This document shows, piece by piece, positions 12,708 to 36,073 of a stretch of 64,000 nucleotides of DNA. Source of the stretch: Oidiodendron maius Zn (Eukaryota; Ascomycota; Leotiomycetes; Myxotrichaceae); assembly GCA_000827325.1 (NCBI GenBank), contig KN832873.1, positions 2,680,245-2,744,244 on the forward strand, written 5' to 3'. Position numbers and translations under genes: made by a program. The notes below the pieces were generated by a model, which had not been told where the DNA came from, ran no database searches, and was given only the letters and a program-made list of their open reading frames with translations. Numbering within the stretch: the stretch's first letter is position 1; every line of letters starts with the position of its first letter.

Positions 12708-13736
12708 CGGAGGCTGTACATGATGTAATGAAAATGAAAATGAAAATGAACAACCTGGGACGGGGCGGCTGCTATGAGACCAGGCATAAACGGGAGCCGC
12801 CAAGGGGACTATGAAGTTTTTTTTGGCCACCGGCGCAGGGGAAGGGGTACGTGATACCACACTTGCGATGTTTCGATGTTCAACTTCAGCGAGTTCAATG
12901 GGGGATGGTAGAAAGAGGAAAGTACTCCGAAGGTGAAGAAAAGGGGCTGTTTCTTGCCACCCACGCGATAAAGTGTATTTACTGTATCACTCACCTATGG
13001 CATTCAACGCCATACCCATCGCTGTGATAATGAAGACACGGGCTCCAAACAAATAATCCGTGCTGTAAAACATGTTCTGTTCTGCTGTGCCCCTCATACC
13101 GACACGGTGTCTGATAGTGAAACTTTTGCGTTGCGTCTGAACCCCCTTTCCCCTCGTTTCGCCTGTCGCAAAAACTTATTTTACGCGGGGACGGAAATAC
13201 TCCGGATTGAAACCTGGTCCGTCAGGCACCACGTCTCGCCTAATTTTCTCTTCCCAGTGAGTTTTCTACTGCGCCTTCCCCCAATAGGAATCGCGCGTCC
13301 AAGCGCGCGGTCTAATCCCAATCCGGCCCACGCCAGGGTCTTTGTACCTTTTGTGCCTGGACGCACGGAAAAGGGTACAAAGGCCGTCGACGCCTGTTAC
13401 GGTACTAGTGGCAGCAACTGACAAGTGCGAAATACGCGGCTCCACTTCCAGCCGGCGTCTGGACTTGTTCCTGCTTCAACTTCAGCTCCCTGAGCGAGAG
13501 AGCGACTCTTCTTCTCCTTCTCCCTTCTCTTCTCTCTCTACCCCTCTCTCTCTCTCTCTGTTGTGTCAACATTATACGGGGATCGATATTCCTCAACTCT
13601 CCTCCTTCCTCTCTCTCCTCATCTCCCTCGCTCCACCACCACCTCCTCTTAATCTCTCTCTCGGGGGTCTAGCCTGCTTCCTCTCCCCTTCCCGCGCGGC
13701 TCGGTTTCCTTCGTTCCTTCCTTCCCCAGCACCACC
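12708..13736. promoter_or_regulatory. ste50 upstream region with long CT-rich leader
   Basis: About 1 kb between teaC and ste50. From ~13,500 to 13,650 the plus strand is almost pure pyrimidine, with a (CT)n microsatellite at ~13,540-13,560. Pyrimidine tracts like this commonly precede transcription starts of highly expressed filamentous-fungal genes. No gene is seen. Confidence 0.45.
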
Positions 13737-28688: not shown

Positions 28689-30026
28689 TCATAGAGTGAG
28701 CGCCGCCATCCTTCTACCTCCTTGCATCAAAAGAGCGTCCAGCAAGCAAATCGAAGCCATGGCCTCCACGATTGGAACTGCGCCTAAATATGGTTAGCAG
28801 AATCAGTTTCATTATTGATAAATTTGACCTACGTGGAACAACACAGGGATCATGACGCCCTTTGGCCTCTAGAAGCCCATCACTTTCCCCTTCAAATGTG
28901 ACCGTTTGTTGAGACAGTCCAATCGTTGCAGGCGACTTGAAAGCGACACGGAAAAAGATGGGCGCACCGTTCGTGATTCCTCCCTGAATACCTCCGCTGT
29001 TGTTCGTCGAGGTTGTGAGCTTTGGCTTCACAAAGCCGTTCTTAGAATCCGAATTAGTATCGGGGTTGCGAATAAACATGTCATTGTGCGCGGACCCAGG
29101 GATTTCTGTTCCTTCAAATCCAGAGCCGACTTCAAATCCCTTTGTCGCTGGAATGCTTAGCATTCCGTGGGCAAGTGTCGCCTCCAACTTCGAAAACACC
29201 GGTTCGCCTAGTCCAGTTGGAACGTTTCGAATGACACACGTAACTGTACCTCCAATACTGTCCTGGCAATCTCGAAAGTTGGCGATGCACTGCTCCATGC
29301 TGGCAGCCACTTCCGGGTCTGGACACCGGACAGGCGATTTGTCAACGGTTTCCCGTGTAACCGCTTGAAGCAGTTGGAGAAACTTAGGGTTATGAGAAGT
29401 GCAAGGATACTCAGTTGTTGGTGGGATGTGATAAATACTCCCAACAGATGAAACCCAAGCAACAATCTCAATCCCATAGGCAAGTTTAAGGTAGTGTTCA
29501 CACAGAGCACCTGCCGCCACACGGCCGATTGTTTCTCGTGCACTCGAACGGCCCCCACCTGACGATGCACGAACACCATACTTCTCAAGGTAGGTGAAGT
29601 CAGCATGACTAGGGCGCGGATACTGCTTCATGGTATTGCCTTTGTAGTCTGACGGGCGGAAGTCCTGGTTCCTGACCATCATGGCTATCGGGGTCCCGAG
29701 TGTGACTCCTCCTTCCACCCCTGACTGGATTGACACAATGTCAGCCTCATTCCGAGGTGTCGTAATAGAGCTTTGACCGGGGCGACGGCGAGAGATCTGA
29801 CATTTTGTGTTACAAAGTTCTAGAAAGTGTGATAGTTGTTCCATATACTAACCTGAGGCTGAAGTATCTCTTCCGAGACCGGGACTCCAGGAGGAAAATT
29901 GTCGACAATACATCCAACGCTGGGACAATGGCTAAAAAATTAGCAGCGGGCGCTATTCTGGCTCGAAATAGATATTTACCTCTCACCGTATGTCGTTACA
30001 CGCAGAAATTGCCCAAATGTTGACAT
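28689..30026 (-). CDS. ARO2: chorismate synthase
   Basis: Last step of the shikimate pathway: 5-enolpyruvylshikimate-3-phosphate to chorismate with reduced FMN. Exons 30026-29980, 29931-29853, 29796-28833 and 28783-28689 give 394 residues. Signature segments are [20 protein letters not shown] at the N-terminus (spliced inside GES|H), [30 protein letters not shown] at ~120, [12 protein letters not shown], and [17 protein letters not shown] near the C-terminus (spliced inside PR|A). Fungal enzymes are usually bifunctional with an intrinsic flavin reductase activity; that is family knowledge, not visible here. The C-terminus after LLMQGG is short and basic (RRMAALTL) rather than the longer tail of many relatives. 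Confidence 0.95.
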
Positions 30027-31175
30027 GGCGGGTTATGCTAATGGTTTGTCAGAGATGTATGTTCTAGGAAAACGTTTGTGGCTAGAGCTATGAACTACCC
30101 GTGTTCCTGATCACGTGCACACCATGCTTACCTTATGTGTCCACTTTTCCCCCACCTGCTGTGCCACTTTATACTGTTATTCCCGGAACGGCTTAACATA
30201 CTTCCAGAACAACAAAAGCACACACGCATGTATGCATAAATGTGCACTCGCACACGTGATGACGTGCACCCAGCTTGTTCACACGTGCAAGTAGGCAGCC
30301 AAAGCAGCCTCCAACAAACATCTCCCTTTACTCTGTACAACACGCTTGTCTCAATGCATGCAACCTCCTCTCAAAATGTGCATATGTTTACCTCCTCAAT
30401 GTTGCAAAACTTCAACAAATAAGGCTTAAAACACTGCCAACTCGCGTTAAGATCTTTTCAAGGCAAATTATTACGCTTGCGTCTATTCCCCTCTCGTACG
30501 TTTTAGGAACAGCCTACAAAACCCTATCAAGGCCCCACTAAGTTAGAAAGCCCAATAAAAGCAGAGCTGACTCTGCTCAGGGAGGGGCTAGCATTTTCGT
30601 TCTGTGTTGGTATATAGCGAAGTCATGGATGCCTCGAATATCAGGCGACAGTCCTCGATGTCAGAGTTTGCTTATATAATTGATACCCAATCCGGTGGAT
30701 TGAAGCCCAACCCTAGAAGCATATAAACCCCTAAGCCAGAGGGTTATATCCTTAATTAATTGAAGCACTTACACACCCTTTACAGCCCTATTTACGTGCC
30801 CTTTTACGGTTCATTGTTCTGCCAGTATAACCTGTAGAGGATATTACCGATACGTTGTAGTTGTAGCCGTATTAAGTTTAGCGCTGCATTGCTCGTAAAC
30901 CTGACACTCGAACTAGGGGGATAGGGGGAATGATATTCCATAGGGCAGTAAATATCACACACGCCACGCACTGTAGAATAGAACCTTAGACTTAATAATT
31001 TATTTTCATTGAACTAGACCCCAACACACAGTACTGTGTTCCATACCGGTGGAACGACATTCTGTTTTCCCTACATTGACCTCAACTTCATCGTTTCCTC
31101 ACCTAATTACGGCGGGGATATTGCCTGTGAACGACCTTAACAGTACGGAGTACAACGAACAATCCCTCTCGAAGT
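30027..31175. other. AT-rich flank between aro2 and the zinc-finger/recombinase region
   Basis: 1.15 kb of AT-rich, gene-free sequence marking the left side of the accessory region. No clear terminal inverted repeats or target-site duplication could be picked out by eye. Confidence 0.4.
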
Positions 31176-32488
31176 ATGCCGTCCGGAAAAAAATATCCTT
31201 GCCCTCTTGCAGGAGCTGAGCATTGCACCGCACTCTTCTCAACCAAAAAAAATGCGCGAGCCCATGCAAGAGACATACATTCTAGGAAACATCACCCTTG
31301 TCCTGCTAAAGGAGATGAGCATTGTAGCAAAGTATTCGCTACTAGAAGAAGTGCCCTAGCCCATGCGAAGGCCTCACATCAGGGTATTCATTACCCTTAT
31401 CCTTTAGCCAAGGAAGAGAGATGCACGAAGACTTTCACTTCCAAAGGCAGGGCGAGCGATCATTCACGATCAGAACATCAAAATATCACATGTGCTTGCC
31501 CGTTGGCAAAGAGAAAAATTGCGTCTTATTGTTCGCCTCCACTTCTAAGGCAAATGAGCACGCGAAGATCATGCACCGAAGCCTCCCGTATCCTTGTCCC
31601 TTTGCGGGGGAAATGAATTGCACCAAAGTATTCCAACACTCACAGAACGCAAAAATGCATGGAAATCTCGTACATCTCCGCAATGGCTGTTGTCCTTGTC
31701 CGTTGGCTGATGAAGCAAGATGTACAATGACATTCAACACTAGAGAGCAAGCCAGAACACACGCTGATGCATTTCACCAACAGCAACGACCTCACGCTTG
31801 CCCGCTCGCCATAGAAATGAACTGCTCTCTGCGGTTTTGGGGAATGAACAGCGCACGTGCTCATTCAGATATGGTTCATCTCAAATTACGCCGTAAATTT
31901 CCTTGTCCTTCTGCAGCGGATGACAATTGTACCAGCATGTTTACTTCAAGAGCTGCAGCAAGCAGACACGCACGTCAGAACCATCTACCCATTTTATGCC
32001 TACGAACGGGGTGTGACCAGCATTTCCGGACAGTTTCAGATGCCTTAGCGCACGCGGAAGACTCGGCTCATGGCATTACGCCTGTCTTCCTTTGTCCTTT
32101 GGCTATGTGCAAACTCGCAGTGACAAGGAAACAACTTACGGAGCGCCAGATGCTTAAGCACAGGTCAGAGCATTTGAGTGCTGGCCATATTATCTCTGAG
32201 TCCGAATACCACCCTCGAGAAATTCCCAACTTCATCGTTCCAGGCAGGTATACCTTATACTTAAAAATGCTGGAACACAGTCCAAATCTCAAAATGGCCG
32301 TACATGACGCTGAGTCCCGCCAGAATGACCTCAACGCCGAAAGCGACCCTGAAGAGTCTGACTACGATGAACGGCCTCGCAGCGCGAGGGACCCCGAAGA
32401 TTTTGATGACGATGAAGGATACTATGACGATATTGAATCTGGCTTTTATCATCACGTATTCGAAAAAGTCTACAATGCGATCCCATGA
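31176..32488 (+). pseudogene. C2H2-like zinc-finger array protein, frameshifted
   Basis: An array of about nine fingers with the pattern C-x7-C-x12-H-x4-H and a 33-35 residue period (CPLAGAEHC, CPAKGDEHC, CPFAGEMNC, CPLADEARC, CPLAIEMNC, CPSAADDNC). A C-x4-C finger (CLRTGC) and a region ending in an acidic tail (EDFDDDEGYYDDIE) follow. Fingers 1-3 are read from the ATG at 31176; fingers 4 onward continue in another frame. The two frames meet inside the first loop of finger 4, so about one base is missing near 31,508. Finger 3 also has Tyr for its first Cys (YPYPLAKEERC). Undamaged, the product would be about 437 residues, probably nucleic-acid binding. A sequencing error could explain the frameshift alone, but the lost Cys and the decayed neighbour favour a pseudogene. 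Function unknown. Confidence 0.7.
31200..32030 (+). repeat. about 99-bp degenerate tandem repeat encoding the zinc fingers
   Basis: The first fingers recur every 33 codons exactly (C at codon 9, then 42, and so on), drifting to 34-35 codons in the later ones. DNA identity between units is low outside the Cys/His and CPLA codons, so the repeat is old. Confidence 0.6.
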
Positions 32489-34338
32489 TCTGCGGCGCGG
32501 TGCTGCACAGGATGCAGCAAATCTGGTGACGAAGATCAAGGGCCATGCAACCGATGCTGTCGCTGAGTTCCTTGGCCACAACGACACCAAGACGACGAAG
32601 CGTTATATTGGAGGCATCAGCGATTCAGTATACACCATAAGAGTCGAAGAGAATTTCCAGGATCCGTTCAATCTCGCGACAACAGACAGCCGCTATAAGA
32701 AGCGTCGCAGACTGGACCCCGCGATCATCACTGAGAGATGTGAGAAAGAGGGTCTGGATCCATCAGTTGCGAAACATAGAAGCGCCGTGAGCCACAAGTT
32801 CACTAGAAAGTCATGGGAGGCCTGGGTGACGAAGGCCAACGAATCCTCGTCTAGCTCTTCAGGTCCGAGGCCCCTCCCCGCGCAAAACCTCTCTTTATAT
32901 AAATGCTGACAATCTCAAAAGTACTTTCGGAAGAGACTGTCGCCACTGATGATGATGCTCCAACAAGTCCGAGCGATCTCGTGGAAGAGCCATCTGACAG
33001 CTCGCTCAAGGAAATGGACGCTGTCGATTTCGCGATTCCAAAGACTCTTCTGCTCTCCGATAGTCTCGACTTCGAAATTCTCCAGGATGATCGGATACAC
33101 CAAACCACAAACTTCAAGGACTTTGAGACTAGTGATCATTTCATGGACCCTGCTCTCCTTCCTGGTAGCGTCGACTGGGATACTCTACAGTTTTTTGCTA
33201 CGGATGGGACAACCTCCGTCAGAAACTCCAACGACGCTGTAGTCGAAGCCCCCAACTTGCTGCTGCATATTGATCCTCGCCTACTGACTGGAGAGTGTGA
33301 CTTCGAAGGCTTGGTGGAGACCAATTCAGAGACAACTGCTGCTGTAGAAGAGGTGTACTTCGATAACATCGGCACTACTGTTGTAGAAGAGGTACACTTC
33401 AACGACATCGTTTCACAAACAGTCCCGACAACGGTCCCCGAGCTGCAAATCGACCCTGTCGATTTCGTCCGTTTCTTTTCCAAGATTAACGTCTCTACCA
33501 ATCAGGTCTTGGCACAGAAGGGGTATCATAAAGATCAGCTTGCCTTGGCTCGATCTTTCTACGCGACACACAGCCAGGACCCAGTAACATCATAGGTCTA
33601 TCCATGCGAGAACGCCAAGTTAGGCTGCTCGTATCAGAACTCTTTCTATAGTGCAGTGCGCGAGCATCAGCTGTCATACAAGATCAAGTCACCAGAGGCC
33701 CTCATCGAGTTGAGTAAGGTCAAGGCATTTCCATGTGATCGCTCAGGATGTAAGAGCAGCTTCGATAGGGCAGGACGACTCAACGGCCACATCCACGAAG
33801 TTCACGAATGGAAGCCGCGCAGCTGCAAGGTGGAAGGTTGTGATTCAAAAGTAGTTTTCGAATCAAAAAAGGAGTTCAAGCGTCATCAGGAGAAGAACCA
33901 TTCTCCTTACACACCCAGTCGATGCCAATTTCCAGGTTGCTCCTCCGAAGTCGAATACGCGACCGCTATGACCTATCGCCATCATCTGGGGACCCATGGA
34001 CTGAGGGACCGCAAGGAGAAAGACAAGTACATGCCAGGAAAGAAGCCTCCCTACACACCCAGTCGATGCCAGTTTCCAGGCTGCTCATCCAAAGTCGCAT
34101 ACACGACCGCTGCAATCTATCGCAATCATCTGAAGCTCCATGGGCTGAAGGACGGCAGGGAGAAAGACAAGTATATTCCATGAAAGAACCGGCTTTGATG
34201 CCCCTGAAGTGCCAGATCCCAAGCTGTAGCAACGCCGCGAATTTTTCTAGACCAGGCAAATTGAGAGATCATCTGGCAAAGAAGCACGATTACCAAGGGA
34301 AAGAGATTGAGGAGCATCTGTCTGTACAGAGGGGCTGA
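32475..34338 (+). pseudogene. tyrosine recombinase C-terminal half with C2H2 tail, decayed
   Basis: Begins abruptly at RSHDLRRGAAQDAAN, which matches the H-x-x-R box of tyrosine recombinases. It continues through EFLGHNDTKTTKRYIGG, the H and nucleophilic Tyr of the catalytic core. The upstream half with the first catalytic Arg is missing. A probable intron at 32863-32921 (branch gctgac, acceptor aaaag, weak donor GTCCGA) restores the frame. An acidic linker with 'SDSLDFEILQDD'-type sequence follows, then zinc fingers (CENAKLGC; CDRSGCKSSFDRAGRLNGHIHEVH; two copies of CQFPGCSS; CQIPSCSNAANFSRPGKL). The tail is broken by TAG at 33593-33595, TGA at 34181-34183 and a one-base shift near 34,191. 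The family resembles Crypton- or DUF3435-type fungal recombinases; which one needs a profile search. It lies immediately after the frameshifted zinc-finger gene. Confidence 0.68.
33908..34195 (+). repeat. 144-bp tandem duplication (two zinc-finger units)
   Basis: Two consecutive 48-codon units starting with tacacacccagtcgatgcca at 33908 and 34052, each encoding one CQFPGCSS finger plus an EKDKY linker. Most differences between copies are single-base substitutions. The second unit ends at the TGA/frameshift damage. Confidence 0.75.
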
Positions 34339-34894
34339 ATCGACGGTGTCTATTTCATCTCTGTTGACATTGCCTATCACGCCGTCAAAATATATTAGCA
34401 ATACGTGTCGCTTGGAGTGTGTGTGGATATGGAGTTGCGAAGCATTGCTCAATTATTTGCTACATTACAAGAGTACTTTTAGAGCATGTCTTTACAAGTA
34501 GCTCAGTGATACATTTGCTATCAGAGATTTTGGGACGAGCTTTACCCAATTATTGTATGTAGATGAATACACTACCTACTGTCGAACTCATATCTCCACT
34601 TATGTCTGTTATTGTAGATAAATAGGCAAGCAGACTGTAATTGTTTTTATGGCTGCATCTTCAAAAGTACTTTCCGAAGAGAGACTATATCGTTGGACGG
34701 CCTCCACGGCAGTGGCCCCCGGAGGGCCAGCGGAGCGTCAGTCTTCATGCTGCTCTTCATAAGCGTAGGACAAGTTACGATGTGCGATCAACTATGAGGC
34801 ATTTGGGATCTATTTGTCTATCGCTGAGGAGATCTAGTCTATGCCAAACTAAAAATTAAGCTAGGAAAGAAATATAACAGGCAAATACCTAGAA
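34339..34894. other. AT-rich right flank of the accessory region
   Basis: 556 bp with no gene. It contains a 20-nt near-copy (34,661-34,680) of sequence at 32,915-32,934 around the pseudogene's intron acceptor, too short to call a second element copy. The vWA gene ends at 34,895 on the other strand. Confidence 0.4.
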
Positions 34895-36073
34895 CTATCT
34901 TCCTCTGCGATCAAGTCTGCGATTCACAGCACCGAGCAGGCATTTCAGAATGAGCTCGCCAGTCAAACTGATACTGCCTTCGGTGGAAGCCCAGGTCACA
35001 GTATCCACGATGTCTCTAACACCGCCCTCGACAAGCTCGCTCAATCCATCATCGAGCTCCTCAAGCGCCTCTCTCGCGCCCGGCTCGTTGCCTACCTGAA
35101 AGAACTGCACGCCGACCTGATAAGGCGGGGCATCTAGCTTGTCGAGCTTCTTGGCTACAGCCAAGAGCACGGACTCAACATCGTCGGAAGGAACACCGTC
35201 GGTAAGAACGATGAGATTGAGAGGCTTGAAATCTCTGCCTTCGGATAGTTCGCTTTTCAGTTTTGCCATGTAAGGCTTGAGGATGTTTTGCACTCTGACT
35301 CCGGTGGGGGTTCCACCCTGGGGCCGCACACGCTCAAAGATCTGCGTCACTGTCTCAGCTCTCTTAATGCCTCGGTAGCCGTTAGGGGCGACGCCCTCAG
35401 AGGCTGAGCCGGGGTTCTCTGAGATATGGTTTAGGAAGTAGATGTCGATTCCGTCCTGGTCATGCTCGGTGACGATGGGTGCTATGGTGGCTAGAGCTTG
35501 CGAGACTTCTCTCCAGCCGCGGCCGGCCATGGAGCCCGAGTCGTCGATGAGGAGAGTGGTGTTAAAGGTAGTGAGGAATGCATACGGATCTTCTGCGCCG
35601 GCTGCAGACGTTGATGGTGCAGGTGGCGCGGCTGCAGCCGGAGGGGTAGCTGCCCTCGGGGAGTCGAGCTCATAAACCGGGGACGGAGCTGAGTGGTCCA
35701 GGGTTGGGCCTGATACGGCTGTAGGCTCGGCAGTATATGCTGGTGGCGGCTCATTGGAGGGGACTGTGAAGGCGTTCATGCCAGGACGATCTGGACGTCG
35801 GGTTGGGGGAGAGGGACCTGACATGAAGAGTGGGCTTTGTGCCGTTCTTCGTGGGGTCACGGCAACGGGCGATATGGATGATGGAGAGAAGGGCCAGTCA
35901 GCAGTGGGAGAACTGGACGATCTCATCGAGGATGGCGAAGATGGAGTTGGGGTACTGGTGCTGGTGCTGTTGAGCTTCCGTAGAGACCCAAGGAGGGATC
36001 GCCTTGGTCGCAGAGGAGCGGGGTAGTCTTCAGATCGCGGACAGAGGGAATTGATATAGAGGTGATGAGACAT
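34895..36073 (-). CDS. von Willebrand factor A domain protein
   Basis: A single 392-codon exon. An N-terminal basic and Ser/Pro/Thr-rich region (~1-165) includes EPPPAYTA, a PPxY motif that could bind WW-domain (Rsp5-type) ubiquitin ligases. The vWA domain spans ~170-365: NTTLLIDDSGSMAGRGW is a clear MIDAS motif (DxSxS), followed by GGTPTG and NLIVLTDGVPSDD, the second and third metal-site elements. No signal peptide, so it is intracellular. Related fungal proteins are uncharacterised. A role as a metal-dependent protein-interaction adaptor is inference. Confidence 0.88.
   Translation of the reverse strand: MSHHLYINSLCPRSEDYPAPLRPRRSLLGSLRKLNSTSTSTPTPSSPSSMRSSSSPTADWPFSPSSISPVAVTPRRTAQSPLFMSGPSPPTRRPDRPGMNAFTVPSNEPPPAYTAEPTAVSGPTLDHSAPSPVYELDSPRAATPPAAAAPPAPSTSAAGAEDPYAFLTTFNTTLLIDDSGSMAGRGWREVSQALATIAPIVTEHDQDGIDIYFLNHISENPGSASEGVAPNGYRGIKRAETVTQIFERVRPQGGTPTGVRVQNILKPYMAKLKSELSEGRDFKPLNLIVLTDGVPSDDVESVLLAVAKKLDKLDAPPYQVGVQFFQVGNEPGAREALEELDDGLSELVEGGVRDIVDTVTWASTEGSISLTGELILKCLLGAVNRRLDRRGR

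Follow-up and report, generated by a model that had tools for sequence, protein, structure and literature searches.

The window analysed here, a stretch of 64 000 nucleotides, corresponds to positions 2680245–2744244 (plus strand) of contig C4 in the 45.9 Mb, 58-contig genome of Oidiodendron maius Zn. At 31176–34338 it carries, on the plus strand, an array of C2H2 fingers, the C-terminal piece of a tyrosine recombinase (YR), an acidic stretch and a second set of fingers. The locus is positioned between a chorismate synthase gene (28714–29844, minus strand; Pfam PF01264, E = 8.2e-107) and a vWA-domain gene (34895–36073, minus strand; PF00092, E = 3.9e-7). The flanks are AT-richer than their surroundings, as stated in the first-pass annotation, with GC fractions of 0.448 and 0.415 versus 0.515 for the whole window.

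The left flank contains a solo LTR of 248 bp (TGTCAG...CTGACA, 30659–30906, no strand assigned) bounded by a 5 bp duplication, CTCGA. Its family occurs at 40 or more other places in the genome with 94–100% identity; this count is a lower bound, 40 of 108 candidates having been scored. Eight pairs of these copies lie about 5.0 kb apart. The LTR is taken for a recent, ordinary and independent retrotransposon insertion, unconnected with the recombinase. For one pair (on C10), a single reading frame of at least 120 amino acids was seen in the 7 kb examined. The right flank has one other match in the genome, 41 bp at 90% identity on C8. Comparison of the two flanks for direct repeats gave a score of 49, versus 67–76 for the ten best of 200 shuffles; the inverted comparison, made without separate shuffles, scored 53. 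RIP-type decay was considered and rejected: the indices were 0.54 and 1.58 for the array and 0.54 and 1.33 for the YR piece, which is not RIP-like by the customary thresholds. The TpA/ApT value of the left flank was higher, at 1.10.

The finger array is read in two frames. Frame 0 (31176–31616) holds two fingers and a third, at about 31398–31478, in which Tyr replaces the first Cys, and then breaks near 31510. Frame 2 (31421–32488) carries fingers from about 31511 to 32071, followed by a linker with an acidic end and a stop at 32486–32488. A pattern search returned eight fingers besides the degenerate one, two in frame 0 and six in frame 2; seven have C-x7-C or C-x8-C spacing and one is of the C-x4-C type. 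The first frame-2 match starts upstream of the break, and the two frames pass into each other inside one finger, which points to a genuine frame break or to an error in the assembly. The frameshifted finger-array gene proposed in the first-pass annotation is thus recovered. So is the overlap of its stop with the start of the recombinase: in the YR frame, the nucleotides of the stop belong to codons for S-H-D-L, part of the HxxR motif. Being formed by YR codons, this stop seems to have arisen from the join rather than to mark the array's own end.

Pfam supports the array fingers weakly. The frame-0 part matched zf-C2H2 with E = 5.8e-5 and 23.8 bits, just under the cut-off of 25.2, and the frame-2 part gave nothing better than E = 0.004, to a profile that is no finger family; the frame-2 fingers are therefore predicted from the C-C-H-H pattern. 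The genome has one clear paralogue of the array, located near 2836000 of C1, with E = 1.4e-19 and 35% identity over 154 residues. It is decayed as well and also carries stops. A match on C6 was marginal (E = 0.03). No relative of the array was found in IMG/VR or GTDB, collections that include no fungal set, so that these misses say little.

The YR piece (32469–32909) is open in frame 0 from about 32469 up to a stop at 32909, with an ATG at 32475 directly before the HxLR motif; HxLR, LGH and the Tyr precede a basic KKRRR stretch. It matched the Pfam profile Phage_integrase (PF00589) with E = 5e-4 and 20.3 bits, below the curated cut-off of 27.1. The integrase families of PHROG were matched as well (phrog_216, E = 8e-4; phrog_1, E = 0.004), while the reversed YR core, used as a control, gave no match. 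Alignment with Escherichia coli XerD places four residues (H and R of HxLR, H of LGH, and Tyr) in shared columns, which bears out the core residues H-x-x-R, H and Tyr named in the first-pass annotation. LGH-D--TT--Y is in register, the spacing from LGH to Tyr being identical; from HxLR to LGH the piece is longer than XerD by a net five residues. Judged by these matches, the motif is more than chance.

The PF00589 match covers only positions 124–166 of the 172 in the profile, the first 123 being absent; the truncation of the recombinase to its C-terminal part, also noted earlier, agrees with this. No match to profile positions before 124 was found in the pieces of the window or listed in the genome. 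When the genome was searched in six frames (E up to 1), this locus was the sole PF00589 place listed (E = 0.016, below the cut-off). The catalytic residues of tyrosine recombinases include a first Arg and a Lys. Since these and the N-terminal core-binding domain are absent, the piece is, as far as sequence can tell, a fragment and not an enzyme. PMC3212892 gives the catalytic residues as R-H-R-Y. The piece differs from PF00589 recombinases such as XerD, beyond its truncation and the extra residues, in being followed by basic, acidic and finger stretches. No PDB sequence was matched at E up to 1, and in NCBIfam the only match was XerA (E = 0.055). Searches by tblastn of GTDB genomes, IMG/VR and phage records found no relatives; as no fungal collection was covered by these, the misses say little.

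The acidic stretch (32903–33595, frame 2; 43 D+E and 11 K+R among 224 residues) is closed by a TAG at 33593. It is followed in the same frame by a finger tail (33596–34183) with four C-x4-C fingers, frame 2 running from 32903 to 34183 apart from this stop. A fifth and last C-x4-C finger, located by pattern search at 34186–34338, lies in frame 1 behind another stop and frame change. The recombinase had been described as having its own finger tail; the fingers are present, but the tail and the YR piece are in different frames, with a frame change and the TAG at 33593 between them. The tail contains a tandem duplication of 142 nt (33903–34044 and 34047–34188, 119 of 142 positions identical) that serves as an internal control: the first copy stays open, whereas the second is interrupted at about 34183 by a stop and a subsequent frame change.

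The tail gave six other matches in the genome, at five places on C3, C2, C18, C4 and C1 (E from 1e-11 to 0.04), some of which may reflect no more than general finger similarity. No relatives of the tail were found in IMG/VR, where a miss again says little for want of fungal coverage. At the paralogous places on C1, C3, C4 and C6 no recombinase was seen by eye in the lists of reading frames, in agreement with the PF00589 search of the genome. Near 1131900 on C3, decayed C2H2 fingers lie beside frames that resemble, by eye, a mitochondrial carrier. The match on C4 is a gene near 253 kb in which a likely intron separates a first part from C-x4-C fingers matching the tail (E = 0.006). Its fingers and those of the tail both exceed the FOXP-CC cut-off; in contrast to the locus, it has no recombinase in the frames listed beside it and its first part is different. 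A tail of this kind thus also occurs without a recombinase. This gene lends some weight to a reading with three neighbours, in which the recombinase fragment lies between the finger-array gene and an ordinary C2H2 regulator made of an acidic exon and fingers, the tail never having belonged to the recombinase. The acidic stretch and tail, sharing one frame from an ATG at 32903, are consistent with such a regulator. However, a genome search with the acidic stretch (E up to 1) found no counterpart, in the C4 gene or anywhere else, the codon usage of this stretch is like that of the YR piece, and an in-frame intron could join the two; we regard this arrangement as improbable.

The reading is interrupted by frame changes or stops at five places: near 31510, at the array–YR join, at the YR–acidic boundary, at the TAG at 33593 and at about 34183. 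For the last four, candidate introns were sought, defined as GT...AG, 40–140 nt in length and keeping the frame. Between the YR piece and the acidic stretch 11 in-frame candidates were obtained, six with a branch motif; the neatest (59 nt, 32863–32921) has a poor donor, GTCCGA. Two candidates (32300–32399 and 32300–32417), sharing a fair donor, GTACAT, and having a branch motif, could connect the array to the YR frame and would make much of the D/E-rich linker intronic. The TAG at 33593 is spanned by ten candidates, all lacking a branch motif; use of the best donor among them, GTAACA at 33584, would delete the two Cys of a finger-like stretch. Each of the six candidates at the tail break cuts into one or other of the two adjoining fingers. 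Except where a finger is damaged, this analysis neither proves nor excludes the introns. Of the apparent lesions, those near 31510 and in the tail have the strongest support; the other three frame changes or stops may be introns.

These breaks bear on whether the locus could encode a domesticated protein still in use, in which a truncated, catalytically dead YR piece translated from the ATG at 32475 would serve in DNA binding or regulation. The position of this ATG immediately before HxLR, the long open frames and the host-like codon usage are what such a protein would look like. Against it, frame changes and stops separate the YR piece, the acidic stretch and the fingers, the TAG at 33593 is spanned by no intron with a branch motif, every candidate at the tail break damages a finger, and no relative turned up in GTDB, IMG/VR or the phage records, none of these being a fungal collection. 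We consider a protein of this kind very improbable.

Codon usage was scored with a table derived from 15 open stretches of at least 300 codons elsewhere in the window, which run from stop to stop and are not verified genes. The array scored -0.03, with a third-position GC of 0.37–0.46. The corresponding values were 0.24 and 0.55 for the YR piece, 0.23 and 0.53 for the acidic stretch, and 0.12 and 0.58 for the tail; the reference stretches themselves, scored in-sample, gave 0.21 and 0.60. The array thus appears unlike the other three parts, which favours two genes of different history. The contrast is not decisive either for two genes or for the position of the junction, because repeats rich in Cys and His bias such scores, the stretches are short, an out-of-frame reading of the first array part containing two stops outscores its reading frame (0.09 against -0.03), and the linker that follows the array is host-like (0.18 and 0.50).

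For the read-through test, the PF00589 score of the YR core was determined with upstream sequence added, the frame break being marked by X where that sequence was in frame 2. The core alone scored 19.1 bits. Addition of the short frame-2 part gave 21.5 bits and of the long linker 19.5 bits; in single controls, the short part gave 19.1 bits when reversed and 20.0 bits when scrambled. The highest score of the test, 22.1 bits, was obtained with the native frame-0 upstream sequence. There was no convincing gain of YR similarity across the frame break and no PF00589 match starting before position 124.

Both analyses concern the possibility that a single ancestral gene encoded a tyrosine recombinase with a finger array on its N-terminal and a finger tail on its C-terminal side, the middle being lost and the frames broken later. 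The array, YR piece and tail do lie on the same strand and in this order, the linker stays open for 100 codons (chance about 0.006) with a host-like codon score, the two branch-motif introns described above could join array and recombinase, and the top read-through score came from the native frame-0 sequence. The codon usage of the array speaks against a common origin, as do the frame-2 read-through scores, which are to be read against those of the core alone and the controls, and the C1 paralogue. The latter is followed by an open stretch of 145 amino acids in another frame, for which no significant Pfam match was found (best E = 0.19) and which is without YR similarity, C1 not being listed in the genome search with the YR piece. 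A single gene is a conceivable but rather unlikely origin.

Taken together, the locus is probably, with considerable room for doubt, a dead relic of two genes: a truncated YR–acidic–C2H2 gene beside a decayed finger-array gene. This reading is based on a PF00589 match beginning only at position 124, the register with XerD, an array stop formed by YR codons, the frame changes and stops, and the contrast in codon usage. Against it stand several frames that remain long and open, the PF00589 score below the cut-off, the empty search of PDB sequences and the three frame changes or stops that may be introns. The first gene would have encoded a fungal tyrosine recombinase, with the basic and acidic stretch and the C2H2 tail continuing its C-terminal catalytic part, and the second would have been a separate finger-array gene immediately upstream. 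A rearrangement, most simply a deletion, would have taken the N-terminal part of the recombinase, with the arm-binding domain and the first catalytic Arg and Lys, and joined what remained to the acidic end of the array gene, after which small lesions would have disrupted the reading frames. An intact enzyme would cut DNA at paired sites through a Tyr–DNA bond, its fingers probably adding DNA binding, and such cleavage cannot be expected of the present piece. The YR piece, the missing profile positions, the frame changes and stops, the lack of a second copy in the searches and the codon contrast are observed; the deletion, the joint ancestry of YR piece and tail, the loss of activity and any former mobility are inferred. 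The interpretation in the first-pass annotation, a deletion fusing a cargo or partner gene to a truncated recombinase and leaving a relic mobile element, is thus supported in part: the truncated recombinase beside a decayed array is borne out, the deletion and the mobility are putative.

The locus was compared with the recombinase families of known mobile elements. The first-pass annotation had named Crypton and Starship-captain enzymes as examples of tyrosine recombinases, and neither kind was supported for this locus. DUF3435 (PF11917), the captain model, matched none of the window pieces, nor the YR strings at E up to 10, whereas a threshold of E up to 0.1 gave 27 pieces in other parts of the genome, of which 21 exceed the cut-off. 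Many of these pieces contain stops; at 12914–14277 on C44, three cover profile positions 1–417 of 418, with two TAG codons listed. The YR piece, if fungal in origin as supposed here, would share with captains the tyrosine-recombinase class and differs in giving no DUF3435 match. GCR1_C, which marks CryptonF, likewise gave no match at the locus versus five places elsewhere in the genome. According to PMC3212892, CryptonF elements consist of a YR plus GCR1_C and end with short (4–6 bp) direct repeats. They resemble the locus in having a YR followed by a putative DNA-binding tail (PMC3212892) and differ in that the tail here consists of C2H2 fingers without GCR1_C. DUF3504 (PF12012), the animal-type Crypton model, gave no match here and matched no control genome either. 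As described in PMC3212892, PMC13373834, PMC12134995 and PMC3783388, captains are recombinases of the DUF3435 type whose kinship with Cryptons is very remote, and one Ascomycota genome contains a single Ngaro remnant.

A bolder reading would make the locus the fossil of a fungal YR lineage apart from captains and Cryptons and nearer to the general Phage_integrase profile, its members carrying a C2H2 tail of their own and perhaps an N-terminal array that served as an exchangeable module for targeting; we hold this to be a long shot. Similar proteins, with HDLRRGAA...LGH and C2H2 tails, probably occur in many filamentous ascomycetes. Among the titles and abstract openings listed, no finger-bearing fungal recombinase of such a kind was described; subscription papers are mostly outside this literature, which is thus no proof of novelty. 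Recombinase genes that move large fungal cargo are an active subject of research, and captain- and CryptonF-model searches of this genome did not list the YR piece, so that some sequences escape scans of this kind. Modular DNA targeting could be put to the test in a finger-bearing recombinase, should intact relatives exist. The locus is at present a single, probably dead piece, and no second copy of its YR or acidic sequence was found in its own genome.

The two copies of a 22-nt direct repeat (32915–32936 and 34661–34682, plus strand, 21 of 22 positions identical) lie on either side of the tail and most of the acidic stretch. Since the YR motif lies outside this interval, unlike in CryptonF with its end repeats of 4–6 bp, the repeat is not readable as a pair of element ends. 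It occurs nowhere else in the genome within two mismatches and at one further place with three, the reversed-pattern control giving none. Both copies lie shortly downstream of an ATG.
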